Positions 18,980 through 41,120 of a stretch of DNA of 64,000 nucleotides are shown here, one piece after another (the stretch's first letter is position 1; each line of letters opens with the position of its first letter). Under the pieces are notes generated by a model. That model saw only the letters and a list, made by a program, of their open reading frames with translations. It was not told where the DNA came from and searched no databases. This DNA is from Aridibaculum aurantiacum (GTDB lineage Bacteria > Bacteroidota > Bacteroidia > Chitinophagales > Chitinophagaceae). The DNA is taken from positions 868,001 to 932,000 of the forward strand of contig NZ_JAFEWC010000001.1 in assembly GCF_017355875.1 (NCBI RefSeq). The letters run 5' to 3'. Position numbers and translations under genes: made by a program.

Positions 18980-21529
18980 ATGAATTCAATTAAGCAACTT
19001 GTAGTTCTACTTATTTTTTGCTGCACCTTTCATGGTGCTTTTGCTGTTGATATATGGGTGTCGGTGAAAGGTTCAGATCATAATGATGGAACAAAAGAAA
19101 AGCCCCTGGCAACAGTTGCTATAGCGTTGCGCAAGGCAAGAGAGTTAAGGAGACTGAATGATCCATCCGTCACAACCGGTATTCGCATAGTGGTGGGTGA
19201 AGGCGTTTACAAACTAGAAGAGCCAATCATTGTACGTCCTGAAGATAGTGGCACACCAACAAGCCCCACAATCATTGAAGCGGCTGCTGGTGCAACACCT
19301 GTATTAAGTGGTGGCGTACTGATCAACGGGTGGCGTAAAGCACCAGGATGGATTGCTGGTTTGCCGAAAGCAGCACAAGGCAAAGTTTGGGTAGCCGATG
19401 CACCTATGGTTGGCGGGCGTTTGCTAGAGTTCAGGCAACTATGGGTGAATGATGCAAAAGCTGTAAGAGCAAAGCAGACACCAGGCAGCAGTATGAACCG
19501 CATTCTTTCATGGAACCATAAAGATCAAACTTGTTGGATACCTAAACCATCAGCAGATGTAAGCAATGCTGAAGGGCTGGAGATGCTCATCCATCAATGG
19601 TGGGCAATTGCCAACCTTCGTGTGAAGGAGATACAGGTACAGGGTGATAGTGCTAAACTTACTTTTCATCAACCTGAAAGTCGCATTCAATCAGAGCATC
19701 CCTGGCCTGCGCCATGGATTTCTAAGAAGACAGGTAACTCAGCTTTTTACTTAATCAACGCAATACAGTTTTTAGATGAACCTGGCGAGTGGTTCCTGGA
19801 TATGAAGAACAGGAAGCTGTACTATTATCCCAAAGCAGGTGAAAATATGCTGACTGCATCTGTTGTCGCGCCTGCATTGGAAACATTGGTGCGGATAGAA
19901 GGGACCATAGATCATCCGGTTTCTTATGTGTTTTTCAAAGGTCTTTCTTTCCAGCATGCTACATGGCTTAGGCCGTCAAAGGAAGGGCATGTGCCACACC
20001 AGGCAGGCATGCCTATGACTGATGCATACAAGCTGAAGGTTCCAGGCACACCCGATAAAAAAGGTTTGGAGAACCAGGCATGGCTTGTAAGGCCGGCCGC
20101 AGCAGTGGAAGCGGCATTCACTAACAATACCGGGTTTGAAGCATGTCGTTTTGAGCACCTTGCTTCTACAGGCTTAGATTACAAGCGAGGCAATCACCAT
20201 GATGTAATAAAGGGCAACCTGTTTAAAGATATTGGTGGTAACGGAATACTGGCAGGAGTGTTTTCGGATGAAGCATATGAAACACATCGTCCTTATGATC
20301 CTGCTGATGAACGTGAGATAACTACCAACACGCATATTGTAAATAATCTTATCACTGATGTAACCAATGAAGATTGGGGATGTATTGGTATTGCTGCTGG
20401 TTATGTAAGAGGTATCAACATCGAGCACAACGAGATCAGCAATGTATCGTACAGCGGTATTAGTATGGGCTGGGGCTGGACAAGAACCATCAATGCCATG
20501 CGTAACAACCGGATACATGCTAATAAGATCCATCACTATGGCAAGCATATGTATGATGTGTCTGCTATCTATACCTTATCCGCGCAGCCCGGTTCTGTCA
20601 TCAGCAACAACTATGTCGACAGCATTTATGTAGCACCCTATGCACATGACCCGCATCATTGGTTTTACCTGTATACAGATGAGGGTTCTTCTTATTTTAC
20701 AGTAAAGGATAATTGGACACCGGCAGAAAAATTTTTGCAGAATGCAAATGGCCCGGGTAATGCCTGGACGAATAATGGTCCGCAGGTAGCAGATAGTATA
20801 AAGCTTCTTGCTGGCATTCAGACACCATATCAATACCTGGTAAAAGAAAGAACGGTTGATAACAGTTGGCCTATCAATAAATACATACCGGTTTCAAAAG
20901 ATAAGCAAGCAAACAAACATGCAGCTATCAATAAGCCTGTAGTGATAGAAGTAGTTGCACCGGCTAAAGCTAATGAGGCCGCAATCAAAAATGTGTTCTC
21001 AAAAAATGGTGTTAGTAGCAACGACATTTATCATTGGAATAATCATCTTGTAGCATTTACCCCACCAAGTGATACTATTAACATCCGCAAACAAATAGCC
21101 ACCGTTCTGCCGCAGTCCCGGGTAAATATTTACAACGACATGTTTTATGTGTTTGACAGAAATGCATGCAATGGAAAAGGAGAGGTGAAAGAATGGGATC
21201 ATATACTGCTTACCGCCAATCTTGTAAAAGATCCTAAGCTGCAGCAGGAATACCTGGACTATCATGCCAAACAGCAACAGCTATTTCCGGAGGTAGCCAA
21301 GGGGTTTTGTAATGCCGACTTCCAGCAACTGTTATTGTTTAAAAATGGAAGACAGCTAATGCTGATCATCAGTATACCAAAAGGTGCAAGCCTGGATGAA
21401 CTCAATCCAAAGACTATGGAAAATAACCCTCGTGTAAACGAATGGAATAGCCTGATGAGTAAATTCCAGGAAGGCATTGAAGGAACAAAGAAAGGAGAGA
21501 CGTGGGTGTTTTTAGAAAAGTATAAATGA
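18980..21529 (+). CDS. Secreted right-handed beta-helix enzyme (GH141-like) fused to rhamnose-mutarotase-like domain
   Basis: An 849-residue exported protein (signal VVLLIFCCTFHGAFA). The N-terminal part DIWVSVKGSDHNDGTKEKPL and the repeated beta-helix coils to about residue 640 resemble GH141-type and other parallel beta-helix glycosidases; GH141 members include an alpha-L-fucosidase acting on rhamnogalacturonan II. Residues about 738-849 resemble L-rhamnose mutarotase: EYLDYHAKQQQLFPEV aligns with the E. coli RhaM motif carrying catalytic His22, here H762. Cleaving a glycoside and speeding anomer exchange of the product in one chain would be sensible. The last codons and stop lie inside the left arm of an inverted repeat (21521-21551). 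The GH141 assignment is tentative, the fusion is clear. Confidence 0.75.
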   Translation: MNSIKQLVVLLIFCCTFHGAFAVDIWVSVKGSDHNDGTKEKPLATVAIALRKARELRRLNDPSVTTGIRIVVGEGVYKLEEPIIVRPEDSGTPTSPTIIEAAAGATPVLSGGVLINGWRKAPGWIAGLPKAAQGKVWVADAPMVGGRLLEFRQLWVNDAKAVRAKQTPGSSMNRILSWNHKDQTCWIPKPSADVSNAEGLEMLIHQWWAIANLRVKEIQVQGDSAKLTFHQPESRIQSEHPWPAPWISKKTGNSAFYLINAIQFLDEPGEWFLDMKNRKLYYYPKAGENMLTASVVAPALETLVRIEGTIDHPVSYVFFKGLSFQHATWLRPSKEGHVPHQAGMPMTDAYKLKVPGTPDKKGLENQAWLVRPAAAVEAAFTNNTGFEACRFEHLASTGLDYKRGNHHDVIKGNLFKDIGGNGILAGVFSDEAYETHRPYDPADEREITTNTHIVNNLITDVTNEDWGCIGIAAGYVRGINIEHNEISNVSYSGISMGWGWTRTINAMRNNRIHANKIHHYGKHMYDVSAIYTLSAQPGSVISNNYVDSIYVAPYAHDPHHWFYLYTDEGSSYFTVKDNWTPAEKFLQNANGPGNAWTNNGPQVADSIKLLAGIQTPYQYLVKERTVDNSWPINKYIPVSKDKQANKHAAINKPVVIEVVAPAKANEAAIKNVFSKNGVSSNDIYHWNNHLVAFTPPSDTINIRKQIATVLPQSRVNIYNDMFYVFDRNACNGKGEVKEWDHILLTANLVKDPKLQQEYLDYHAKQQQLFPEVAKGFCNADFQQLLLFKNGRQLMLIISIPKGASLDELNPKTMENNPRVNEWNSLMSKFQEGIEGTKKGETWVFLEKYK

Positions 21530-22011
21530 TGAAGTATAAATGATGAATGAAAAGAAAAATATATTGAAGGATAAATCATTTCATTTCGCTGTTCGCATTT
21601 ATAAATTGTTTAAGTATTTAAATGAGTCAAAGAAGGAATTTGTACTGAGTAAACAGTTATTAAGAAGTGGAACTTCTATAGGTGCAAATATCAGGGAAGC
21701 TTATAACGCATCGAGTAAAGCTGATTTCATCAATAAGCTCTCAATAGCTCAAAAAGAAGCGGATGAAAGTATCTACTGGTTAGAGCTTCTAAAGGAAGTT
21801 GATTTATTAACGCAAGAAGAATCTAATTCGATTTATGGTGAAGCTGTCGAATTATTGAAGATGATCAGAAGCAGTATAATGACTGCCAAAAAGAACATTC
21901 AAAACATAAGTAAGAAAACCGTATGAAAACTATGAACTATGAATGATGAATGAGAGCAATTTTATTGCTAGGTGGGTCAATTCATTTATCATTTATAGTT
22001 CATCATTTATA
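21521..22011. other. S23 gene framed by 31-bp inverted repeats, IVS-like element
   Basis: The left arm at 21521-21551 and the reverse complement of the right arm at 21981-22011 agree at 29 of 31 positions (differences at arm positions 14 and 25). The enclosed 491 bases hold one S23-family gene. A copy in the same orientation as the left arm also follows the S23 stop (21930-21952), and a small perfect hairpin AGCAATTTTATTGCT lies at 21955-21969. The layout, an S23 gene inside a terminal stem, matches intervening sequences of 23S rRNA, but the flanks here are protein genes. Confidence 0.7.
21540..21926 (+). CDS. Four-helix-bundle S23/IVS-encoded protein
   Basis: A 128-residue, charged, helix-rich protein of the S23 (23S rRNA intervening-sequence protein, Avd-like) family. 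The family hallmark LRSGTSIGANIREAYNA is at about residues 40-56, followed by KLSIAQKEADESIYWLELL. The biochemical function of the family is poorly known; relatives assist reverse transcription in diversity-generating retroelements or are encoded in rRNA insertions. No reverse transcriptase or rRNA is nearby. It is unrelated in function to the sugar genes on either side, and its start codon lies inside the left inverted-repeat arm, which suggests it arrived as part of an insertion. Confidence 0.85.
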   Translation: MMNEKKNILKDKSFHFAVRIYKLFKYLNESKKEFVLSKQLLRSGTSIGANIREAYNASSKADFINKLSIAQKEADESIYWLELLKEVDLLTQEESNSIYGEAVELLKMIRSSIMTAKKNIQNISKKTV

Positions 22012-22022
22012 ATTAGAAGAAC

Positions 22023-23114
22023 ATGTTGAAATTAGGAATATTAGGTTTAGGCGAAGGTCGCAGCACCATCTCTGCTGCCTTACAAAGCGGCAGGTATGCA
22101 CTAAAGATGATTTGCGATGCAAAGGAAGAATTATGTAAGCAGCGTGCTAAGGAATTTGATTTTCATCAATACACAACCAGCTACCAGCAGATGCTGGATG
22201 ATAAAGAGATTGATGTTGTCGCTATCTATACACCTGATCATTTACATGCACAGCATGTGAAGCAGGCATTACTGCACGATAAGCATGTGGTATGTACCAA
22301 GCCTTTCATCGACAACCTGGCTGATGCAAAAGAGTTACTGGAGCTACAGGAAAAGTCAGGGAAGAAAGTTTTCATAGGTCAAAGCTCAAGATTCTTTGAG
22401 CCAGCTAAAAGACAACGCAAAGACTATGAAGCAGGCTTATTGGGAGAATTGATAACAGTGGAAAGTCACTACCATGCAGACCATCGTTGGTTCCTGGAAA
22501 AAGGTTGGTCGCTGATGCAGTCATTCAAATGGTTGTATGGAGGATTAAGTCATCCTGTAGATTTCATAAGATGGTACCTGCCCAACATAGAAGAAGTAAT
22601 GGGTTACGGAATGGTGAGCAGCAATGGTAAAACAGCAGGTTTAAAAAATGAAGACACCATGCACTTCATCTTCAAAGCTACTGATGGTAGAATTGCAAGA
22701 GTGAGCGGTGTATATACCAGCCCCATTCAACCGGCACAACGCGATAGCGGCATGACCGTAATCTTAAGATGTACAGAAGGTGCCAGCCAGGCTGACTACC
22801 ACGAGTTGCGCTATTCCGTTACAGATAAAACAGGTGAAGAAAAGATCATCCACTGGGGTGATAGCACCATGAAGCACTACTTCCGCTTCGAAGGTCAGAG
22901 CCATCACGCAGGTGAGTACCAGAACTACCTGGAATATTTTGCTGATAGTATTGAACAAGGCTTTACGGCTTATCCCGACATGCAGGAAGGAATCGGAACC
23001 ATCGCATTATTACAAGCCATGGACAGGTCATTGCAAACAGGCATGCCTGTGAAAGTAGATGCGATATTGGATGAGTATGGATTAACAAATGAAAAATTAA
23101 AAATGAAAAATTAA
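22023..23114 (+). CDS. Gfo/Idh/MocA-family sugar oxidoreductase
   Basis: A 363-residue NAD(P)-dependent oxidoreductase. The Rossmann motif LGILGLGEGRS opens the protein, YTPDHLHAQHV follows, and VVCTKPFIDN holds the lysine of the family EKP motif (here TKP). The C-terminal domain shows YGGLSHPVDFIRWYLP, where a catalytic histidine is expected. It has no signal peptide and is presumably cytoplasmic. D-apiose dehydrogenase belongs to this superfamily, so a role ahead of the RuBisCO-like/kinase genes is possible but unproven. The final codons (NEKLKMKN) are encoded by an A-rich repeat that forms an inverted pair with 23154-23177. Confidence 0.85.
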   Translation: MLKLGILGLGEGRSTISAALQSGRYALKMICDAKEELCKQRAKEFDFHQYTTSYQQMLDDKEIDVVAIYTPDHLHAQHVKQALLHDKHVVCTKPFIDNLADAKELLELQEKSGKKVFIGQSSRFFEPAKRQRKDYEAGLLGELITVESHYHADHRWFLEKGWSLMQSFKWLYGGLSHPVDFIRWYLPNIEEVMGYGMVSSNGKTAGLKNEDTMHFIFKATDGRIARVSGVYTSPIQPAQRDSGMTVILRCTEGASQADYHELRYSVTDKTGEEKIIHWGDSTMKHYFRFEGQSHHAGEYQNYLEYFADSIEQGFTAYPDMQEGIGTIALLQAMDRSLQTGMPVKVDAILDEYGLTNEKLKMKN

Positions 23115-23177
23115 AAAGAAGAAGCAGGAGTGTAGTCACATTACTCCACAGGTTTTTCATTTTACATTTTTCATTTT
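23087..23177. repeat. A+T-rich intercistronic inverted repeat
   Basis: The arm at 23087-23110 and the reverse complement of 23154-23177 match at 22 of 24 positions. The spacer contains a second hairpin, GGAGT paired with ACTCC (about 23128-23147). The left arm overlaps the end of the oxidoreductase gene, and the right arm ends about 9 bases before the symporter start. A processing or attenuation role is possible. Confidence 0.6.
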
Positions 23178-23186
23178 GCCTTAACC

Positions 23187-24773
23187 ATGAAAGATATATA
23201 CACCTTACTACAGCCTCTTGACTTCGCAATAGTAGCAGCTTATTTGGTGATACTAATAGCTATTGGCTATTGGGTTAGTAAGAAGCGCAACAAAGAAGAT
23301 AACCTGTTTCTTGCCGGCCGTTCATTAGGCTGGACGAGCATAGGCTTTACCATGTGGGGTACCAATGTTGGTCCTTCTATGCTCATCGCTTCTGCAAGCA
23401 TTGGTTATACAACCGGTGTAGTTGCAGGCAACTTTGGATGGTATGCGTTTCCGTTCATCTTCCTGTTAGCCGTTGTCTTTGCGCCACGTTACCTGAGTGC
23501 TAAAGTGTCTACCCTGCCAGAATTCATGGGCAAGCGTTTTGGCGAATCGACACGCAGTATTCTTGCATGGTATAGCATTGTTACCATACTCATATCATGG
23601 CTTGCACTTACACTTTATTCAGGTGGCATATTGGTAAGCCAGATACTCAACTTCCCTTTGTGGTTATCTATTCTTACACTGGTGCTCGTGTCTGCATTCT
23701 TTGCCATAGCAGGTGGATTAAAAGCCATCGCTTATACCAACGTCTTCCAGATGATTTTGCTGATCGTTGTATCACTTATCATCACGGTGGTAGGTGTGAT
23801 GAAAGTTGGAGGGCCTGTAGCACTATTCGAAAAAACGCCAGCTCATTATTGGAACCTGTTGTTGCCAATGGATGACAAGAATTATCCTTGGCTCGCTATT
23901 GCATTGGGTTATCCTGTTATGGGTGTATGGTTCTGGTGCACCGATCAATCAATGGTGCAATCAGTACTTGGTGCAAAGAACCTGAAGCAGGGACAGCTGG
24001 GTGCCAACTTCACCGGCTGGTTGAAGATCTTCGATGTAGCGTTATTCATCATTCCCGGCATCGTATGTTTTATTTTATTTCCCAATCTTAAAAATCCTGA
24101 TGAAGCATACATGACCATGGTTACACAACTGTTTCCATCTGGTATGACAGGATTGGTGATGGCCGTATTGATTGCTGCGCTTGTCAGCACCATCGATAGT
24201 GCACTCAACTCGCTCAGTACAGTCTTCACCATGGATATCTACATCAAAAACTACAAGCCTGGTGCTACTCAAAATGAGATCAATCGTATCGGCCGGATTG
24301 TAATGATGATAGGTGCTGCTATTGCTGTAGCATTAGCATTGGGCATCAACAGCATCAAAGGTTTAAACCTTTTCGATGTATTCCAGGCAGTGCTTGGTTT
24401 CATTGCGCCACCCATGTCAGTCGTGTTTCTCTTCGGTGTGCTTTGGAAAAAGACAACCACCCGTGCTGCCAACTTCATCTTATCGGTGGGAACAATCATA
24501 AGTATTGGCACCGGTATCTTGTACCTGTGGGTGTTCCCTTCTAATGTATACACCTTCTGGCCGCACTTCCTGTTGCTTTCGTTTTACATATTTGTCGTGC
24601 TTGCCATCTCTGCGTTTGTTATCAGTTATTTCGATAAAAATTACACACCTGTTACCCAGCACCAACTTGCATTTGCAGAAGCACCAAAGCCCAGCAGGCG
24701 CGTGATGTTTTCATGGGCTGTCCTCATCATAGTGATGATAAGCTTGTATGTGCTGTTTAATGGACATGGATAA
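23187..24773 (+). CDS. Sodium:solute symporter (SSS family) 2
   Basis: A 528-residue integral membrane protein of the SSS family. TM1 is FAIVAAYLVILIAIGYWV; the following NLFLAGRSLGWTSIGFTMWGTNVG and ALVSTIDSALNSLSTVF are typical of SGLT-like sugar transporters. It would move a monosaccharide or sugar acid into the cytoplasm with Na+. It lies between the Gfo/Idh oxidoreductase and a GH78 enzyme, so a rhamnoside-derived or apiose-type sugar is a reasonable guess. The region downstream is filled with dispersed repeats. Confidence 0.9.
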   Translation: MKDIYTLLQPLDFAIVAAYLVILIAIGYWVSKKRNKEDNLFLAGRSLGWTSIGFTMWGTNVGPSMLIASASIGYTTGVVAGNFGWYAFPFIFLLAVVFAPRYLSAKVSTLPEFMGKRFGESTRSILAWYSIVTILISWLALTLYSGGILVSQILNFPLWLSILTLVLVSAFFAIAGGLKAIAYTNVFQMILLIVVSLIITVVGVMKVGGPVALFEKTPAHYWNLLLPMDDKNYPWLAIALGYPVMGVWFWCTDQSMVQSVLGAKNLKQGQLGANFTGWLKIFDVALFIIPGIVCFILFPNLKNPDEAYMTMVTQLFPSGMTGLVMAVLIAALVSTIDSALNSLSTVFTMDIYIKNYKPGATQNEINRIGRIVMMIGAAIAVALALGINSIKGLNLFDVFQAVLGFIAPPMSVVFLFGVLWKKTTTRAANFILSVGTIISIGTGILYLWVFPSNVYTFWPHFLLLSFYIFVVLAISAFVISYFDKNYTPVTQHQLAFAEAPKPSRRVMFSWAVLIIVMISLYVLFNGHG

Positions 24774-24782
24774 GGCATAAGA

Positions 24783-25030
24783 AGTCAAAAGTGAAAATTC
24801 AAAAGTCAAAATAGAAGAACTCATAACTTATCATTAATCACTCATAACTCCCTTCATGGATAAAAGATATTTTGGTAACCAGCTCGATCACACTACTCAA
24901 CAGCCGTTGCGTCGCACACTTGTGCCGATGGGAAATCTGATGAACCAAGTCAAAATTCAAAGTTCAAAATTCAAAAGCAAGTACCTAAAGTGTATCAGCC
25001 TTTTTGCTTTTTTACTTTTGACTTTTGACT
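24783..25030. repeat. A+T-rich repeat cluster around the GH78 start
   Basis: Runs built from CAAAAGTCAAAATTC-type words occur at 24783-24812 and 24949-24980, and the inverted version at 25001-25030. The last two form an imperfect foldback with a 20-base spacer. Between them lies a GATGAAT-type tract (about 24820-24850) and dispersed repeat copy 5. The second arm encodes the hydrophobic core of the following enzyme's signal peptide. Confidence 0.55.
24905..24926 (+). repeat. Dispersed repeat copy 5, short form
   Basis: CGTTGCGTCGCACACTTGTGCC, identical to copy 8 over its core apart from one base near the end. It lies just before the preferred start of the GH78 gene, and a longer reading from the ATG at 24856 would translate it, which I consider unlikely. 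Confidence 0.7.
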
Positions 25031-27144
25031 TTGTGCTTGCGCAGCAAGCCACATGGATCTGGTACCCCGGAGACTACGAGATCTGGTTAAGTAACAAAAT
25101 GCAAAACCGCCGTACAGAGCGTGGTTCTTTCTTTCCACCTTTTTGGAAATTAGATAGCCATTACCCGCTCATGGACTTTCACAAGGTATTTGATGTTAAA
25201 TCTCCTGAAACCATTGAGCTATTTGTAGAAGGTAAATACAATGTAAAGCTGGACGGGAAGCCGCTTGAAGGAACACCAACCAAGGTTACCATTCCTGCAG
25301 GCAAGCACAAGATCAACATCAAAGTTTTCAACCAGCAGTATGTGCCTGCTATCTATTTAAAAGGCAAAAGCATTGTTTCAGACAGCAGCTGGTTGGTGAC
25401 ATACGAAGACAAAGAATGGATAGATGAAACAGGTAAGGTATCTGATCAATCCGGTACGACATGGTTGAAAGCCGGCTACTGGAATTTTGATAAGCCTACG
25501 GCCAGGCCATCACAAGTGCAACTGCCGGTAAGAGCGCAGCGTGCAGTAAAGACAACAAAAAAAGGCAATGCACTACTGGCCGATTTCGGCAAAGAAACAT
25601 TTGGCTTCATCAAGCTGCACGGGCTAAAGGGTAAGGGCAACCTGACCATCTATTATGGAGAGTCGCAGGAAGAAGCACTATCAACTACACATGGAGAAAC
25701 CCTCGATCGTTTGCAGGTCAACAGGCCAAGCAAAAGAGATAGTGTGATGGAGCTGTCAAAAGCGTTCCGTTATGTAAATATCATTGCTGATCCTGCTGTT
25801 ACTTACGATTCGGTTTCTATGCTGTATGAGTATGCTCCCGTTACTGTTCGTGGCGACTTCCGTTGTTCTGACGACCTGATCAACAAGATCTATGACGTAT
25901 CAAAGTACACGTTTGAACTGAACACTAGAGAGTTCTTCATTGATGGTATCAAGCGCGATAGGTGGATCTGGAGTGGCGATGCATACCAGAGTTACCTGAT
26001 GAATTACTATCTCTACTTCGACAATCCTACAGTGGAAAGAACACTGGTAGCATTGCGTGGTAAAGACCCGGTGACAAGTCACATCAACACCATCATGGAT
26101 TATACGTTTTATTGGTTCATTGGCATCTACGACTACTACCTCTACACCGGCGATACCAAGTTCATTCAACAGTACTACCCGCGTATGCAAAGCCTGATGG
26201 AATATGTTTTATCACGGCGCAACAAGAACGGTATGGTAGAAGGTTTATCAGGTGATTGGGTGTTCATTGATTGGGCTGAAGGACTGAGTAAGAAAGGGGA
26301 AGTAAGCTTTGAGCAGTTACTTTTTGCCCGCAGCCTTGAAGCAATGGCTATTAGTGCCAACATTGCAGGGGATGCTACTAATGGTGCAAAATACCAGCAA
26401 TTAGCAACTGATTTAAAGTCTAAGATTTTCTCTACCTATTGGAATGAGGGTAAACAAGCATTGGTACATAGCCGTATTGATGGTGTTCCTACAGATCATG
26501 TTACGCGCTATGCAAACATGTTTGCCATTTTCTTCAACTGGTTGAATGATGCGCAGAAGCAAGGTGTAAAGCAAAACGTGTTACTGAATAAAGATGTACC
26601 AAAGATCACTACGCCTTACATGCGTTTTTACGAGCTGGAAGCATTGGCTGCTATGGGTGAGCAAGCATATGTACTTAAAGAAATGAAAGACTACTGGGGC
26701 GGTATGCTTAACCTGGGTGCTACTTCCTTTTGGGAAGAATACAATCCAAGCAAGCAGGGTGTAGAGCACCTGGCGATGTATGGTCGTCCATTTGGTAAAA
26801 GTCTTTGTCATGCATGGGGAGCAAGTCCTATTTATCTTTTAGGTAAATATTACCTGGGTGTTAAACCTACTGCACCGGGGTATGAAACATATGTGATAGA
26901 ACCTTCACTGGGTGGCTTGCAGTGGATGGAAGGAAAAGTGCCAACACCACACGGACAAGTAACTATGTATGTAAGCACCAATAACATTAAGGTGAAGTCT
27001 GATGGTGGCATTGGTACATTAAGATTGAAGAGTGCAAGCATGCCTGTGGTGGAAGGCGCTCAAGTAAGATCAAAAGGTGATGGTGTGTATGAAGTCACTA
27101 TTGAAAAAGGTAAAGAATACTCTATCAACTATAAGAGTATCTAA
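24940..27144 (+). CDS. Secreted GH78-type alpha-L-rhamnosidase-like enzyme
   Basis: About 734 residues from the ATG at 24940. ATGs at 24856 and 24928 are in frame, but the first would translate a dispersed repeat. A signal peptide (CISLFAFLLLTFDFVLAQ) is followed by beta-sandwich domains and an (alpha/alpha)6 six-hairpin catalytic domain from about residue 310. DGIKRDRWIWSGDAYQSYLM corresponds to the GH78 motif DCPxRDExxGWxGD, and a late NLGATSFWEEYNPSKQG segment carries a candidate second catalytic glutamate. GH78 enzymes release L-rhamnose. It is shorter than the 925-residue GH78 enzyme at 41448 and only distantly related to it, so its specificity may differ. Confidence 0.8.
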   Translation: MNQVKIQSSKFKSKYLKCISLFAFLLLTFDFVLAQQATWIWYPGDYEIWLSNKMQNRRTERGSFFPPFWKLDSHYPLMDFHKVFDVKSPETIELFVEGKYNVKLDGKPLEGTPTKVTIPAGKHKINIKVFNQQYVPAIYLKGKSIVSDSSWLVTYEDKEWIDETGKVSDQSGTTWLKAGYWNFDKPTARPSQVQLPVRAQRAVKTTKKGNALLADFGKETFGFIKLHGLKGKGNLTIYYGESQEEALSTTHGETLDRLQVNRPSKRDSVMELSKAFRYVNIIADPAVTYDSVSMLYEYAPVTVRGDFRCSDDLINKIYDVSKYTFELNTREFFIDGIKRDRWIWSGDAYQSYLMNYYLYFDNPTVERTLVALRGKDPVTSHINTIMDYTFYWFIGIYDYYLYTGDTKFIQQYYPRMQSLMEYVLSRRNKNGMVEGLSGDWVFIDWAEGLSKKGEVSFEQLLFARSLEAMAISANIAGDATNGAKYQQLATDLKSKIFSTYWNEGKQALVHSRIDGVPTDHVTRYANMFAIFFNWLNDAQKQGVKQNVLLNKDVPKITTPYMRFYELEALAAMGEQAYVLKEMKDYWGGMLNLGATSFWEEYNPSKQGVEHLAMYGRPFGKSLCHAWGASPIYLLGKYYLGVKPTAPGYETYVIEPSLGGLQWMEGKVPTPHGQVTMYVSTNNIKVKSDGGIGTLRLKSASMPVVEGAQVRSKGDGVYEVTIEKGKEYSINYKSI

Positions 27145-28448: not shown

Positions 28449-29816
28449 ATGAAAGATTTGTTGTTAGCATTCTATGGTGATGACTTCACAGGAAGTACTG
28501 ATGCATTGGAGTTTTTATCTCGTGCAGGGATGAAAGCTGCGCTGTTTATCGAGCCGCCAACAGTAGAGCAACTGGCTGCTTACCCCGGCTTGAATGCCAT
28601 TGGAGTGGCAGGCATGACACGTTCTTTACCACCGCATGCGATGCAGCGTGAACTGCAGCCGGCATTTGAAAAGCTAAAGGAACTGGCGCCGCGACATGTG
28701 CATTATAAAGTTTGTTCTACGTTCGATTCTTCACCAGAGATCGGCAGCATTGGTAAAGCAATAGATGTAGGTGCCAGTGTATTCGCCAATCGTTATATCC
28801 CGCTGTTAGTGGCTGCTCCGCCATTAGGCAGGTACTGTTTATTTGGAAACTTGTTTGCCCGTTTGGGTATTGGCAGTAATGGAAACATCTACCGCTTAGA
28901 CAGGCATCCATCTATGAGTAAACATCCGGTTACGCCCAGCAATGAAAGCGATCTGAGGTTACACCTGGCTAAACAAACCAACAAGCAAATAGAGTTGGTA
29001 GATATACTTCAAATAGCAAAGCCAATAACTGAAGTTGAAGCGGCATTAAATAAGCTTTGCCACGAAGGAGCAGAGGTGGTGTTGTTCGATGCGCTTGAAG
29101 AAGAGCAACTGCTTCCAATAGGAGAGGTGATAGATAAAGAAGCCAGGGCTGGTTCAACTGTTTTCAGTGTTGGTTCTTCAGGTATTGAAATGGCTCTGGG
29201 TAAATATTGGAATCAACAAGGTGTGTTGCAAGTAGCCGATAATTGGGCAACACCTGGTGAAGCTTCGCCTCTCTTAGTGCTATCCGGAAGCTGCTCACCT
29301 GTTACCGCTTCGCAAATTCACTGGGCAATAGAGCATGACTTCAAGGTGATTGAAATAGATGTTTGGTCACTTTTTAAAAAGGATAGTGAGAAGGCGTTGC
29401 AAGAATATATTGAACATGCACTCGACTTCCTTTCACAAGGAACCAGTGTGATTGTGCATACAGGTGGAACAACCAACAAAGTCAACCTTCGCAAAAATGG
29501 GGTGGAAGTGATTGGTTCTGCATTAGGTAACATAGCACGTGGGATATGCGAAAGAGAAAAGCTGACACGTATCGTAGTTGCCGGAGGTGATACTTCCAGT
29601 TATGCTGCAAGGGCTATGGGAATAGAAGCAGTAACCATGATTGCTCCATTAGCACCCGGTGCTCCATTGTGTAAGGCATCAGCACCCGGATCGCCATTAG
29701 ATGGTATCGAGATCAACTTCAAAGGCGGGCAGGTAGGGGCGGAGGATTATTTTGGTCTGCTGAAAGAAGGCAAGTCAAAATTCAAAAGTCAAAAATCAAA
29801 AGAGATGGTGGAGTGA
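28449..29816 (+). CDS. DUF1537 acid-sugar kinase, probable 3-oxo-isoapionate kinase
   Basis: A 455-residue kinase of the four-carbon acid sugar kinase family. The start LLAFYGDDFTGSTDALEFL and YKVCSTFDSSPEIGSIG belong to the substrate domain, while VVAGGDTSSYAARAMGIEA and FKGGQVGAEDYF belong to the nucleotide domain. It sits directly behind the RuBisCO-like gene, the known arrangement of OiaK with OiaX/OiaT, and so probably makes that enzyme's phosphorylated substrate. The last residues (KSKFKSQKSKEMVE) are encoded by an A-rich dispersed repeat, which indicates the repeat has replaced or extended the natural C-terminus. Confidence 0.85.
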   Translation: MKDLLLAFYGDDFTGSTDALEFLSRAGMKAALFIEPPTVEQLAAYPGLNAIGVAGMTRSLPPHAMQRELQPAFEKLKELAPRHVHYKVCSTFDSSPEIGSIGKAIDVGASVFANRYIPLLVAAPPLGRYCLFGNLFARLGIGSNGNIYRLDRHPSMSKHPVTPSNESDLRLHLAKQTNKQIELVDILQIAKPITEVEAALNKLCHEGAEVVLFDALEEEQLLPIGEVIDKEARAGSTVFSVGSSGIEMALGKYWNQQGVLQVADNWATPGEASPLLVLSGSCSPVTASQIHWAIEHDFKVIEIDVWSLFKKDSEKALQEYIEHALDFLSQGTSVIVHTGGTTNKVNLRKNGVEVIGSALGNIARGICEREKLTRIVVAGGDTSSYAARAMGIEAVTMIAPLAPGAPLCKASAPGSPLDGIEINFKGGQVGAEDYFGLLKEGKSKFKSQKSKEMVE

Positions 29817-29943
29817 GAAATGTAAAATGAAAAATTAAAAATTGAGAAGAAGTAAGTTTCTATTCTCATCTCTCATATTCTATCAATCAGTATTCATCAC
29901 TTATCATACATCATTCATAATTCATCACTCATAGTTAATTAAC
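29772..29943. repeat. A+T-rich spacer with repeat words
   Basis: The segment begins inside the kinase 3' end with CAAAAGTCAAAAATC-type words, continues with AAATGAAAAATTAAAAATTG and then turns into the complementary style (TTCATCACTTATC, CATCATTCATAATTCATCAC). It ends right at the next start codon. The composition is like the spacers at 21.9, 23.1, 24.8 and 39.6 kb. Confidence 0.5.
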
Positions 29944-36245: not shown

Positions 36246-36677
36246 ATGCCAATGATCAAGATCTGGATCCATTTAGTATGGGCTACCAAACATAGACATC
36301 CACTTCTGAAAGATTCTATTCGCAGAAACATCTTCAACCACATCAGGGTTAATGGCAGGAAAAAAGGATTATTCATTGACTGCATCAATGGTTATACAGA
36401 TCATATGCATTGTCTTATTTCCTTGGGCGCTGAGCAAACAATTGCTAAAGTGGTTCAATTGATCAAAGGCGAATCTTCTTATTGGATAAATCAACAGCAG
36501 TTGACCGAGGATAAGTTTGAGTGGCAGGATGAATATTTTGCTGTATCTGTTTCTGAATCTATGTTAGCTACAGTTCGCACTTATATTTATAAGCAGGAAG
36601 AGCATCATAAGAAACAAACTTTTCAGCAGGAGTATGATGCATTTATTGGAAAATATGGTTTCAATGTAGTTGGCTAA
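36246..36677 (+). CDS. REP-associated tyrosine transposase (IS200-like, RAYT)
   Basis: A 143-residue Y1 HUH-type transposase. The metal-binding HUH motif is H53-M-H55 in GYTDHMHCLISL, and the catalytic tyrosine lies in VRTYIYKQEEHHKK (Y113 or Y115), the YIxxQxxHH signature. Such enzymes nick single-stranded DNA at hairpins; RAYTs are domesticated forms tied to REP palindromes. The gene is embedded in a REP-like array: a W' palindrome ends 10 bases upstream, and the TAA stop is itself part of the next W palindrome at 36670-36683. It appears intact and could still mobilise the surrounding palindromes. Confidence 0.9.
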   Translation: MPMIKIWIHLVWATKHRHPLLKDSIRRNIFNHIRVNGRKKGLFIDCINGYTDHMHCLISLGAEQTIAKVVQLIKGESSYWINQQQLTEDKFEWQDEYFAVSVSESMLATVRTYIYKQEEHHKKQTFQQEYDAFIGKYGFNVVG

Positions 36678-39518: not shown

Positions 39519-39692
39519 ATGAGTAAAGTGAGAATGCTAAGTCAAAAGTCAAAATTCAAAAGACCACAAAAGCAGCTTGACTGTCATTCAAATTTCATTC
39601 TTCATACTTCATCATTTATCATTCATCATTTATCATTCATCATTCATAGTTCATCATTCATAGTTCATCATTCCTAGTTCATCACTCATCAC

Positions 39693-41120
39693 TTACCATG
39701 TGTCCGTCCTGAAGCTCGAGACAGGTAATCCATCTGTACCATATAAGTCACCCACTACAAAATCTTTGAAAGCATATCGTACGGCTACCGGTTCTTTTAC
39801 TTCTGGTGCCGACACGGCAATACTGCTTCCATTGATCCATGCCTTAGCAGGATAGAAAACTTTATTCGCTCCTGCTATCTCAAACTGCGTTAACTCTTTA
39901 CCAAAAGAAGTCAATCCATTTGGTACATTTTGGAAACGAACATTGGCAATACTCCCGGTAATAGTAAGTGTATCGTAAGCAGGACTGGCAGCGCCGAACC
40001 CGTTCATTCCATACGTTTTAGCCAGTGCTAACAGTGCCAGTCTTTTTCCTCCTGCTTCTTTGTTAGCAGGATGTATTTGCTTCTCCTCGCCAATGTCCAG
40101 CAACACAGCCATAGCTGCATTCGGTATTACCTTTTCCGCCTTCCTTTGTGCATCACGCAGGTAAGCAGAATTATATTTTCCGCCAGTGTGGTGCGGCGGC
40201 AGCTGTGCATAATTATAGGGTGCTATCTGTGCATAATAAAATGGAAAGTTGCCAATGCCCCATTCGTTGCGCCATTGCTTTACCATCGTTGGAAAAAGCT
40301 TTTGGTATTTATCCGGATCATCATAATTTGATTCGCCCTGGTAAAACAGTGCGCCCCTGATACCATAACCAATGATAGGGTGTAGCATGCCATTGTATAA
40401 AGTAGTAGGCGTGCGGCTCACAGCTTTTATCGTGTCACCTTTCACCGGGATTTTCACGCCAAAGTCTTTCAGTGCTTCTGGTGTCATCCAGGCCTCGGCA
40501 TAAGAGCCACTGTAGCTGCAATTGATAAGGCCTACCGGAACATCCAGCATTTGATTAACAAGCTTTCCAAAGTAATAGCCGGTAGCGCTGAAGTTGCTAA
40601 CAGTTTCTGGTGAAGCCTCTTTCCACTCTGATGGCTTGCTGTTCTCCTGCACTTCTATAACTGATGAACGCGGAACCGTATACAACCTGATGTTTTTGTT
40701 TCTCGAATGAAGGATAGCGTCATTGGAGCCAAGGATAGGTTGGCCTTTAAACCCCTTCATCGGCATTTCCATATTTGATTGTCCGCCCAATAGCCAGACT
40801 TCGCCAATTAATACATTGGTAAGCGTTGTTGGTTTACCATTGGAGATAGTAACGGTATAAGGACCTCCAGCAGTTGGTGTCGCTACTTTTACTTTCCATT
40901 TGCCTGCAGCATCTGCTTTAGCTGTGTAGCTGATCTTACTCCACGAAGGTGTGATTTTGATTGAACTGCCTGCATTACTCCAACCCCAGAACGCAACATC
41001 TGTTTGCTGTTGCAGTATCATATTATTTGTGAAGATGGAAGGAAGCTTTACCTGTGCATGATTGATAAATGCAAGGGATAGTAATAACAGTAAGAGAAGA
41101 GATGCTTTGATAGTCTTCAT
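39693..41120 (-). CDS. Secreted SASA/SGNH carbohydrate O-acetylesterase
   Basis: A 475-residue exported esterase (signal TIKASLLLLLLLSLAFINHAQ) of the sialate O-acetylesterase type. The nucleophile serine is in LLGGQSNMEMPM and the GALFYQGESNYDDP block is the second family signature. A central jelly-roll-like insertion separates them. Despite the name, many Bacteroidota members deacetylate plant polysaccharides such as xylan or pectin. It lies among rhamnosidases and an arabinofuranosidase, so removal of O-acetyl groups from a pectic glycan is likely. It is transcribed with the GH127 gene and away from the GH78 gene. Confidence 0.88.
   Translation of the reverse strand: MKTIKASLLLLLLLSLAFINHAQVKLPSIFTNNMILQQQTDVAFWGWSNAGSSIKITPSWSKISYTAKADAAGKWKVKVATPTAGGPYTVTISNGKPTTLTNVLIGEVWLLGGQSNMEMPMKGFKGQPILGSNDAILHSRNKNIRLYTVPRSSVIEVQENSKPSEWKEASPETVSNFSATGYYFGKLVNQMLDVPVGLINCSYSGSYAEAWMTPEALKDFGVKIPVKGDTIKAVSRTPTTLYNGMLHPIIGYGIRGALFYQGESNYDDPDKYQKLFPTMVKQWRNEWGIGNFPFYYAQIAPYNYAQLPPHHTGGKYNSAYLRDAQRKAEKVIPNAAMAVLLDIGEEKQIHPANKEAGGKRLALLALAKTYGMNGFGAASPAYDTLTITGSIANVRFQNVPNGLTSFGKELTQFEIAGANKVFYPAKAWINGSSIAVSAPEVKEPVAVRYAFKDFVVGDLYGTDGLPVSSFRTDTW

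Follow-up and report, generated by a model that had tools for sequence, protein, structure and literature searches.

Intervening sequences (IVSs) that encode an S23 protein are known from 23S rRNA, for example in Leptospira. In Coxiella, according to passages of PMC4990558, the 23S IVS measures 428 nt, ends in a 28-bp terminal stem and carries tandem heptamers directly 5' of the S23 ORF. A different kind of hairpin element is represented by REPINs. Passages of PMC3116915 describe these as extragenic hairpins of inverted doublets that have a cognate gene, RAYT, and include non-autonomous forms. Tandem heptamers also occur as the G-rich repeats of Xanthomonas and Nostoc, where excerpts of PMC4692102 place 7-bp units mostly between genes and near the next 5' ORF, count, for two Xanthomonas genomes, 70 and 75 convergent heptamer pairs that usually have four units, and report no general association with mobile elements. 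The text of that article mentions neither "S23" nor "four-helix bundle", and "S23" is likewise absent from the text of PMC4679880 on the TAACTGA repeats of Beggiatoaceae. Heptanucleotide repeats have so far been ascribed to polymerase slippage, the explanation quoted in the excerpts of both articles (PMC4679880, PMC4692102). A search of the literature found no paper linking S23 to the arrays described below.

The window analyzed here is a stretch of 64,000 nucleotides from Aridibaculum aurantiacum (Chitinophagaceae). Table 1 presents the parts of an S23-bearing element that is flanked by a GH141 gene and a Gfo/Idh gene and lies outside any 23S rRNA gene. A first-pass annotation had described a near-perfect inverted repeat around one S23 gene, a left arm holding both the upstream stop codon and the S23 start codon, and an IVS-like layout outside rRNA; all three descriptions were borne out. 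Of the 31 positions in each arm (21521-21551 and 21981-22011), 29 are complementary, and the pair extends without gaps to 34 nt (91%). The inverted score of the arms, 25, compares with at most 14 when the two flanks, each about 300 nt long, were shuffled 1000 times with dinucleotides preserved. Both arms are AT-rich, low in complexity, and consist of degenerate tandem arrays of a TATGAAT-like heptad. They base-pair in the RNA fold (z -3.0), and the third array forms a short hairpin with the 3' arm around a loop of about 28 nt. Searching 20900-22700 against Rfam gave no rRNA match and two matches below the gathering score, both to microRNA models.

Table 1. Features of the S23 element and its host genes (window coordinates).
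Feature	Coordinates	Strand	Remarks
Upstream host gene, GH141 insertion domain and C-terminal RhaM-like mutarotase domain	18980..21529	+	stop codon within left arm
5' arm, degenerate heptad array	21518..21551	+	inverted partner of 21981-22014
S23 / four helix bundle protein ORF, 128 aa	21540..21926	+	PF05635, TIGR02436; starts inside 5' arm
Third array after S23 stop codon	21927..21953	+	direct relative to 5' arm, inverted relative to 3' arm
3' arm, inverted heptad array	21981..22014	-	ends 8 nt short of next gene
Downstream host gene, Gfo/Idh/MocA oxidoreductase	22023..23114	+	directly after upstream gene, without S23, in relatives

As in a 23S IVS, the S23 ORF lies in a loop closed by terminal inverted repeats, and the Coxiella IVS also has heptamers 5' of the ORF (passages of PMC4990558). 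The window element differs in sitting in a protein-gene operon rather than in rRNA, in having locus-specific arms of 7- or 8-bp units, and in belonging to a genome that carries many arrays without S23. With REPINs and RAYTs as presented in passages of PMC3116915, the S23 elements share dispersed extragenic hairpins of inverted doublets, a cognate gene and non-autonomous forms; they differ in that the S23 partner is a four-helix bundle protein with no Y1/HUH transposase domain and the arrays are tandem 7- or 8-mers, not REP palindromes. No rRNA-located S23 appeared among the analyzed loci when a single 18-nt 23S motif was used; since this is a weak test, the link of these elements to rRNA IVSs rests on PMC4990558.

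The window S23 ORF matches PF05635 in Pfam (E 4.6e-30) and, above cut-off, the NCBIfam model TIGR02436 "four helix bundle protein" (E 7.1e-34). It matches no transposase model in either collection, no transposase lies within the element, and no defense-system or phage-protein model matches it; named phage genomes yielded no match to one S23 protein. The additional label "Avd-like" in the first-pass annotation did not hold up at the level of sequence, as 2GSC and 2RLD were the only solved structures that a profile of six related S23 proteins, with the window's own left out, matched well. One S23 is under purifying selection, with a median dN/dS of 0.078 (29 of 30 ORFs found, 28 used).

S23 between inverted arrays is a general layout and is not unique to the window locus. 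The suggestion that S23 genes of Chitinophagaceae be checked for flanking inverted repeats proved fruitful: inverted arms flank S23 at 58 of 93 loci in 48 genomes of the family, the loci being top Pfam scorers rather than a random draw. Swapped partners gave 13/930, other ORFs on the same contigs 6/354, and matching in direct orientation 5/93. The 93 loci remained from 100 after removal of five with wrong coordinates (contig-end cuts), one duplicate and one with a short flank. When one locus is taken per genome, 54-75% have arms, with a mean of 64%. No arm match reached the threshold at the other 35 loci, and in the window's own genome five of nine S23 loci lack one under the strict measure of the family survey. 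Across many phyla, arms were found at 40 of 74 S23 loci, these being the members with long enough flanks among the best 80 of at least 583 confirmed loci, against 9/740 for swapped partners. Arms also flank 12 of 14 S23 loci in Mesorhizobium and 22 of 32 on viral contigs (15/256 swapped; 32 of 35 loci used), several of these contigs being near-identical. A chance or ordinary terminator-like inverted repeat beside an ordinary gene would agree with the AT-rich, low-complexity arms, but is refuted by the shuffles, the swapped partners, the other ORFs and the other phyla, leaving it a negligible probability.

The arms are built from tandem units whose length is 7 bp, or 8 bp in some S23 subfamilies. 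Identity at lag 7 is 0.497 across the family loci versus 0.24-0.31 at lags not divisible by 7, and among the 111 loci with an arm score of at least 13, 110 have a period of 7 or 8 and one a period of 10. Arrays mostly comprise 4-6 units, and the number of copies in an arm differs widely from one species to another. The two arms of a locus are copies of one another, and an arm's own partner outscores partners from the same subfamily at 97 of 99 loci. Closely related S23s have units in common, so that unit sequence tracks S23 subfamily. Mapped onto the S23 tree, unit length changes 8 times against 17.0 in shuffles, none of 500 being as low; between the two locus sets taken alone, the unit-versus-S23 correlation did not reach significance, since 293 of 2000 permutations gave as high a value. 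A fit between unit and subfamily could arise if gene and arms were inherited together. The dinucleotide AG is present in the sense strand of 99 of 110 units and in the antisense strand of 19, with 66.7 (sd 4.7) in shuffled units. A role for the units in supplying stop triplets in all three frames was rejected: 74 of 110 consensus units contain a stop, with 67.7 expected from shuffled units.

Arrays also occur away from S23 genes. At a score of at least 14 and periods of 7 and 8, eight S23-bearing genomes gave 60 arrays in 400 kb taken at round coordinates, and 21 S23-free genomes gave 2 in 747 kb; with a looser cut-off the counts were 73 and 9. These comparisons were made within one family, that of the window. 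Since arrays there are common only in S23-bearing genomes, it appears that S23 partners a widespread repeat element. The pattern is not uniform, as 40 kb at round coordinates of one genome with 13 S23 genes (G083) held no array. In 44 genomes, 75 arrays lie more than 1 kb from any S23 gene in 585 kb, a count in which two of the nine stretches from the window's genome (L146, L148) had been picked for known arrays; control periods of 5, 10, 11 and 13 showed no rise. Density, position, pairing and unit fit all held when recomputed without the array-picked stretches L142, L143, L146 and L148 and with each array counted once. In the window's genome, 42 S23-less arrays from stretches not picked for arrays match the units of the resident S23s at 0.708 versus 0.598 (sd 0.025) for foreign sets, with none of 5000 draws as high. 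Forty of 44 arrays in 202 kb of that genome are intergenic, and neighboring arrays at most 150 nt apart in nine genomes are convergent in 28 cases, divergent in 2 and parallel in 15. The 7-bp arrays in the arms, the locus- and subfamily-specific units, and the numerous S23-less arrays of S23-bearing genomes all go beyond the first-pass annotation.

The view of the element as an inserted segment was upheld by the empty-site comparison, since the upstream and downstream host genes are adjacent without S23 in nine relatives, which are all those in which both genes could be read. Typically the element follows the stop codon of one operon gene, precedes the start of the gene after it and is oriented with the transcription of the operon; the upstream gene is co-directional with S23 in 63 of 67 cases, and the median distance from stop codon to arm is 5 nt. 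One Mesorhizobium site is empty, S23-bearing or occupied by an S23-less element, depending on the species; comparison with the empty sites established no target-site duplication. The 20 S23-less Mesorhizobium stretches were chosen with both flanks visible, two of them for a longer gap, and their split of 18 to 2 is therefore not a frequency. Two S23-less elements at the mmsB site were compared with resident S23s, with a match in genome G206 and none in G211, one of the two (L410) being unlike the sole S23 of its genome. Among 17 Mesorhizobium loci, any S23s with 80% identity or more have a flank in common, so most copies there are inherited, and no recent jump of a single S23 to a new site was caught.

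Several processes could produce such elements. The arms could act solely as an mRNA stem cut by RNase III, with S23 bound to it and thereby regulating its own gene or the operon, and with no spread of arrays by S23. The sense orientation in operons, the site between stop and start codons, the pairing of the arms in the fold and, in passages of PMC4990558, the excision of the Coxiella IVS by RNase III all accord with such a device. It is nevertheless unlikely to be the whole account because it leaves unexplained the dispersed S23-less arrays, their near absence from S23-free genomes, their fit to the units of resident S23s, and an array pair lying between convergent genes (L147:13736-13806).

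Alternatively, elements may be moved by a Y1 (IS200-like or REP-type) transposase or a reverse transcriptase to which S23 is an accessory. S23 and Y1 counts correlate across 97 genomes (rho 0.46) and a genus-mate (L270) has a Y1 ORF after its GH141 gene, but the correlation may merely mirror genome openness. In Pfam terms, Y1 is missing from 13 and RVT_1 from 49 of the 75 genomes with S23; 11 have neither while carrying up to 12 S23 genes, although some of the genomes are drafts. Judged by co-occurrence, neither enzyme is a required partner, no catalytic partner came to light, and we consider such a mover quite improbable. Replication slippage, in turn, might generate heptad arrays for polymerase-related reasons, S23 being a passenger that lands in or beside them. 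Wide differences in arm copy number among species would suit this account, as would the statement in excerpts of PMC4679880 that heptanucleotides are the commonest long simple repeats in most surveyed genomes. Slippage alone, however, predicts arrays in S23-free relatives, where the two noted above were seen, and predicts neither inverted partners, nor an in-register arm match, nor a link between unit length and the S23 tree, all of which are observed. We regard it as very improbable.

The reading that we consider probable is that of an IVS-like element outside rRNA in which S23 recognizes the repeat units and maintains or spreads the hairpins, in the manner of RAYTs and REPINs but without a transposase. 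S23 would be translated from the host transcript, and its pentamer would bind the tandem units. Because arrays mostly have 4-6 units and nearly all units carry AG on one strand, binding is probably to single-stranded DNA or RNA, perhaps with one unit per protomer. By holding the hairpin, S23 could allow arrays to be kept, lengthened and copied into other spacers, while cutting and joining may fall to host replication or repair enzymes. S23 would then be the sequence-reading, non-catalytic partner of a hairpin-element population, as RAYT is for REPINs. The arms pair in the mRNA, so that, by analogy with 23S IVSs, their processing by RNase III is also plausible.

A broader reading, on which our judgment is evenly divided, is that S23 four-helix proteins are sequence-specific drivers of an unnamed class of bacterial repeats. 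Each subfamily would dictate unit sequence and unit length (7 or 8 bp), make or keep inverted arrays in operon spacers genome-wide, and itself ride one hairpin. The IVSs of 23S rRNA would be rRNA-inserted members of this class, which would also have produced a large part of the so far unexplained heptanucleotide repeats of bacteria such as Bacteroidota, cyanobacteria and Xanthomonas. If true, this would tie together the function of S23 proteins, which have solved structures and no assigned role, the origin of 23S rRNA IVSs and the origin of heptanucleotide repeats. A protein subfamily that sets the period of a tandem DNA repeat would be of wide interest.

The arms around the S23 gene, which the first-pass annotation had described as inverted repeats framing a single S23 gene, are complementary at 29 of 31 positions and can be extended to a pair of 34 nt. 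Their left-right score is 25, against a maximum of 14 in 1000 dinucleotide shuffles, and the enclosed protein is indeed S23 by its matches to PF05635 and to TIGR02436 ('four helix bundle protein'). A feature overlooked by that annotation is that the arms are arrays, that is, degenerate tandem repeats of a TATGAAT-like heptad. A third array lies 3' of the S23 stop codon and makes a short hairpin with the right arm.

Coordinates of the S23 element, of S23-less arrays and of related features (window positions unless a locus is named)
Location	Feature	Remarks
18980-21529	GH141/RhaM-like gene	upstream flank
21518-21551 / 21981-22014	inverted arms
21540-21926 (+)	S23 ORF
22023-23114	Gfo/Idh/MocA oxidoreductase gene	downstream flank
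23087-23182	S23-less convergent heptad pair	directly 3' of the Gfo/Idh gene; AAATGAA type with a 35-nt loop and an arm score of 18; agrees in unit with the S23 element at C1:990512 (locus L006)
24770-25032 and 29772-29932	composite clusters of differing heptad arrays	some reach into ORF ends or N-termini
36258-36596 (G000:C1:904258-904596)	Y1 (IS200-like/REP-type) transposase domain	Pfam match; the genome has five such domains in all
39539-39698	two adjoining arrays, S23-less	39587-39698 is of TATGAAT type (112 nt, lag-7 score 51), a unit type common to the window S23 element
L269:3975-4126	unrelated imperfect palindrome, by eye	GH141-Gfo/Idh spacer of a genus-mate; CATTGCGAGGAG... / ...TTCCTCGAAATGACG
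L270:4075-4539	Y1 transposase ORF (PF01797, E 8.1e-22)	after the GH141 gene of another genus-mate
L430:392-2556	S23 element (unit TTAGCTT) whose arms match	Pseudanabaena galeata plasmid; cas6 and cas4 on either side

The proposed layout, S23 between inverted repeats outside rDNA, recurs in the Chitinophagaceae, where S23 is present in 75 of 97 genomes at 1-16 copies each. In a sample of 93 S23 loci from 48 genomes, arms with a score of at least 14 were found at 58 loci, or at 51 of 80 once the window's genome and a genus-mate were omitted. By comparison, pairing the left flank of one locus with the right flank of another gave 13 of 930, other ORFs on the same contigs 6 of 354, and direct instead of inverted matches around S23 occurred at 5 of the 93 loci. 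Within the 5' arms, base identity is 0.497, 0.474 and 0.417 at lags 7, 14 and 21, and 0.24-0.31 at all other lags from 2 to 20. For the nine S23 genes of the window's genome (L009 counted), 450-nt flanks taken from the domain edges give an arm score of at least 14 at six and of 13 at one more; four pass the stricter measure used for the family set. By eye, each of these loci has its own unit, concordant on both sides at most loci.

Outside the family, a pattern-based search over 84,980 species, one genome each, confirmed at least 583 loci. The best 80 of these come from Bacteroidota, cyanobacteria, Clostridia, Proteobacteria, Acidobacteria, Planctomycetes, Chloroflexi, candidate phyla and others. 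Of the 74 that could be tested, 40 carry arms, as do 9 of 740 swapped pairs; by the best lag the period is 7 in 32 of the 40, 8 in seven and 12 in one. Arms were also present at three of four cyanobacterial plasmid loci examined and at 12 of 14 Mesorhizobium loci; the ten Mesorhizobium genomes were chosen by their mmsB site, and three have no S23. In Flavobacteriaceae, the flanks of L154, L155, L156, L158, L159 and L161 match each other as a chain, and the S23 gene may be fixed there at a common place; the unit of L154 and L161 is 8 bp.

The elements tend to sit within runs of co-directional genes. The upstream gene shares the direction of S23 in 63 of 67 cases and the downstream gene in 58 of 65 (39 of 44 and 33 of 43 in the other-phyla set), while adjacent ORF pairs in general share a strand in 362 of 506. 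Since the median distance from the upstream stop codon to the arm is also only 5 nt in the family set, S23 seems to rely on host transcription. The arms would then pair as a stem within the host transcript, as modeled by RNA folding (z -3.0).

Sites without the element, a comparison suggested in the first-pass annotation, do exist. In nine relatives the two genes that border the window element lie next to each other with no S23 between them; the spacers measure 14 to 170 nt, other heptad arrays are visible by eye in those of L272, L273 and L278, and the upstream gene is split or shorter in L276, L277 and L278. In a tenth relative, the genus-mate L270, a Y1 transposase ORF follows the GH141 gene, at the position of S23 in the window, the stretch ending before the Gfo/Idh gene. 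Turning to Mesorhizobium, the spacer before mmsB (3-hydroxyisobutyrate dehydrogenase gene, named from plasmid homologues) shows three states among 50 stretches, although the counts are not frequencies, 30 being best matches and 20 picked. It is filled by S23 in 30 (427-557 nt, unit GGCAGTA in highly variable copy number), empty in 18 (24-31 nt, native stop codon and ribosome-binding site kept, by eye), and occupied by S23-less arrays with other units in two. The S23 gene at this site is under purifying selection (median dN/dS 0.078, 28 sequences). Movement is slow, since every pair at least 80% identical among 17 Mesorhizobium S23 loci has a common flank. At one site, the S23 copies of different species (L370 and L441 versus L432 and L442) belong to two lineages of about 70% identity whose units differ slightly, which suggests replacement of one element by another.

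The unit is related to the protein that it surrounds. Its length is 7 bp at 92 and 8 bp at 18 of 110 clear-armed loci, and when mapped onto a tree of these 110 proteins, the 8-bp state requires 8 changes against 17.0 when shuffled (0 of 500 as low), a clustering helped by near-copies on a tree of few columns. Where two S23s reach a score ratio of at least 0.7, their units are always equal in length and have a similarity of 0.766, which falls to 0.48 in the most distant pairs. Taking every pair, S23 and unit similarity correlate at r 0.215, reached by 0 of 2000 permutations; between the family and other-phyla sets alone, 293 of 2000 reach the observed r. The dinucleotide AG is on the inward-pointing strand in 99 of 110 units (shuffled units 66.7; other strand 19), and in 30 of 34 versus 20.0 after similar S23s are thinned. 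In 97 of 99 cases an arm has a better match in its own partner than in arms of other loci whose S23s are similar, and in 68 of 88 the alignment in register outscores one shifted by whole units. The two arms of a locus thus appear to be mutual copies rather than a pair of independent arrays.

Arrays also occur without S23, in counts that omit the window element and stretches chosen for known arrays. At a score of at least 14, the window's genome has 36 in 202 kb, eight S23-bearing genomes sampled at round coordinates have 60 in 400 kb, and 21 S23-free genomes have 2 in 747 kb; at 12 or more the numbers are 44 (40 intergenic), 73 and 9. Control periods of 5, 10, 11 and 13 give at most two arrays per group at score 14. 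The S23-rich genome G083 had none in 40 kb sampled at round coordinates. More than 1 kb from any S23 gene (44 genomes, 585 kb), 66 arrays have period 7 and nine period 8. Neighbouring arrays no more than 150 nt apart in the window's genome and eight others are convergent in 28 cases, divergent in two and parallel in 15, and the arms match in 13 of the 28 convergent pairs. Because some arrays in the window run into N-termini, the true start of ORF 24856-27144 may lie further downstream than called.

Two known systems resemble the element. The 23S rRNA intervening sequence (IVS) of Coxiella has the same anatomy, with a 28-bp terminal stem cut by RNase III and, depending on the strain, two or three heptamers in tandem immediately 5' of the S23 ORF (PMC4990558), but it lies inside rRNA. 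REPIN/RAYT has in common the logic of hairpin doublets with a cognate gene (PMC3116915), but that gene is a Y1 transposase. Heptameric intergenic repeats are described in Xanthomonas and Nostoc, convergent pairs included (PMC4692102, with no 'S23' listed for its text), and in Beggiatoaceae (PMC4679880). Among the matches listed from the open-access literature and a few preprints, no title or abstract start ties S23 or four helix bundle proteins to non-rRNA heptad arrays, the sole overlap found being the heptamer remark on Coxiella in PMC4990558. With no link between the two among these matches and one defining feature different from each system, we regard the element as new in kind; it would be a variant of the IVS instead if IVSs were taken as the parent kind.

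For the subfamily fit taken alone, gene and arms may instead have been inherited together, which would partly account for the fit without recognition. Turning to the dispersed arrays, the fit of 42 S23-less ones from the window's genome is 0.708 to the units of that genome's nine S23 elements but 0.598 to sets of nine foreign elements (sd 0.025; 0 of 5000 sets reach 0.708), hardly altered without the window S23 (0.702 versus 0.592). Co-occurrence does not call for a Y1 transposase or a reverse transcriptase, since 11 of 75 S23-bearing genomes lack both, although S23 counts correlate with Y1 counts. Together, the agreement of unit length with the S23 tree, the fit of dispersed arrays to resident S23s and the near absence of arrays from S23-free genomes of the family indirectly suggest that S23 recognises the array unit. 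S23 of Xanthomonas campestris is a homopentameric torus (PMC4990558), and the solved structure 2GSC is of protein XCC0516. Array length has quartiles of 4.4, 4.7 and 5.9 units, short arrays being lost below the detection threshold, and from this usual length one might guess that an S23 pentamer, in reading the array, could hold a single unit per protomer.
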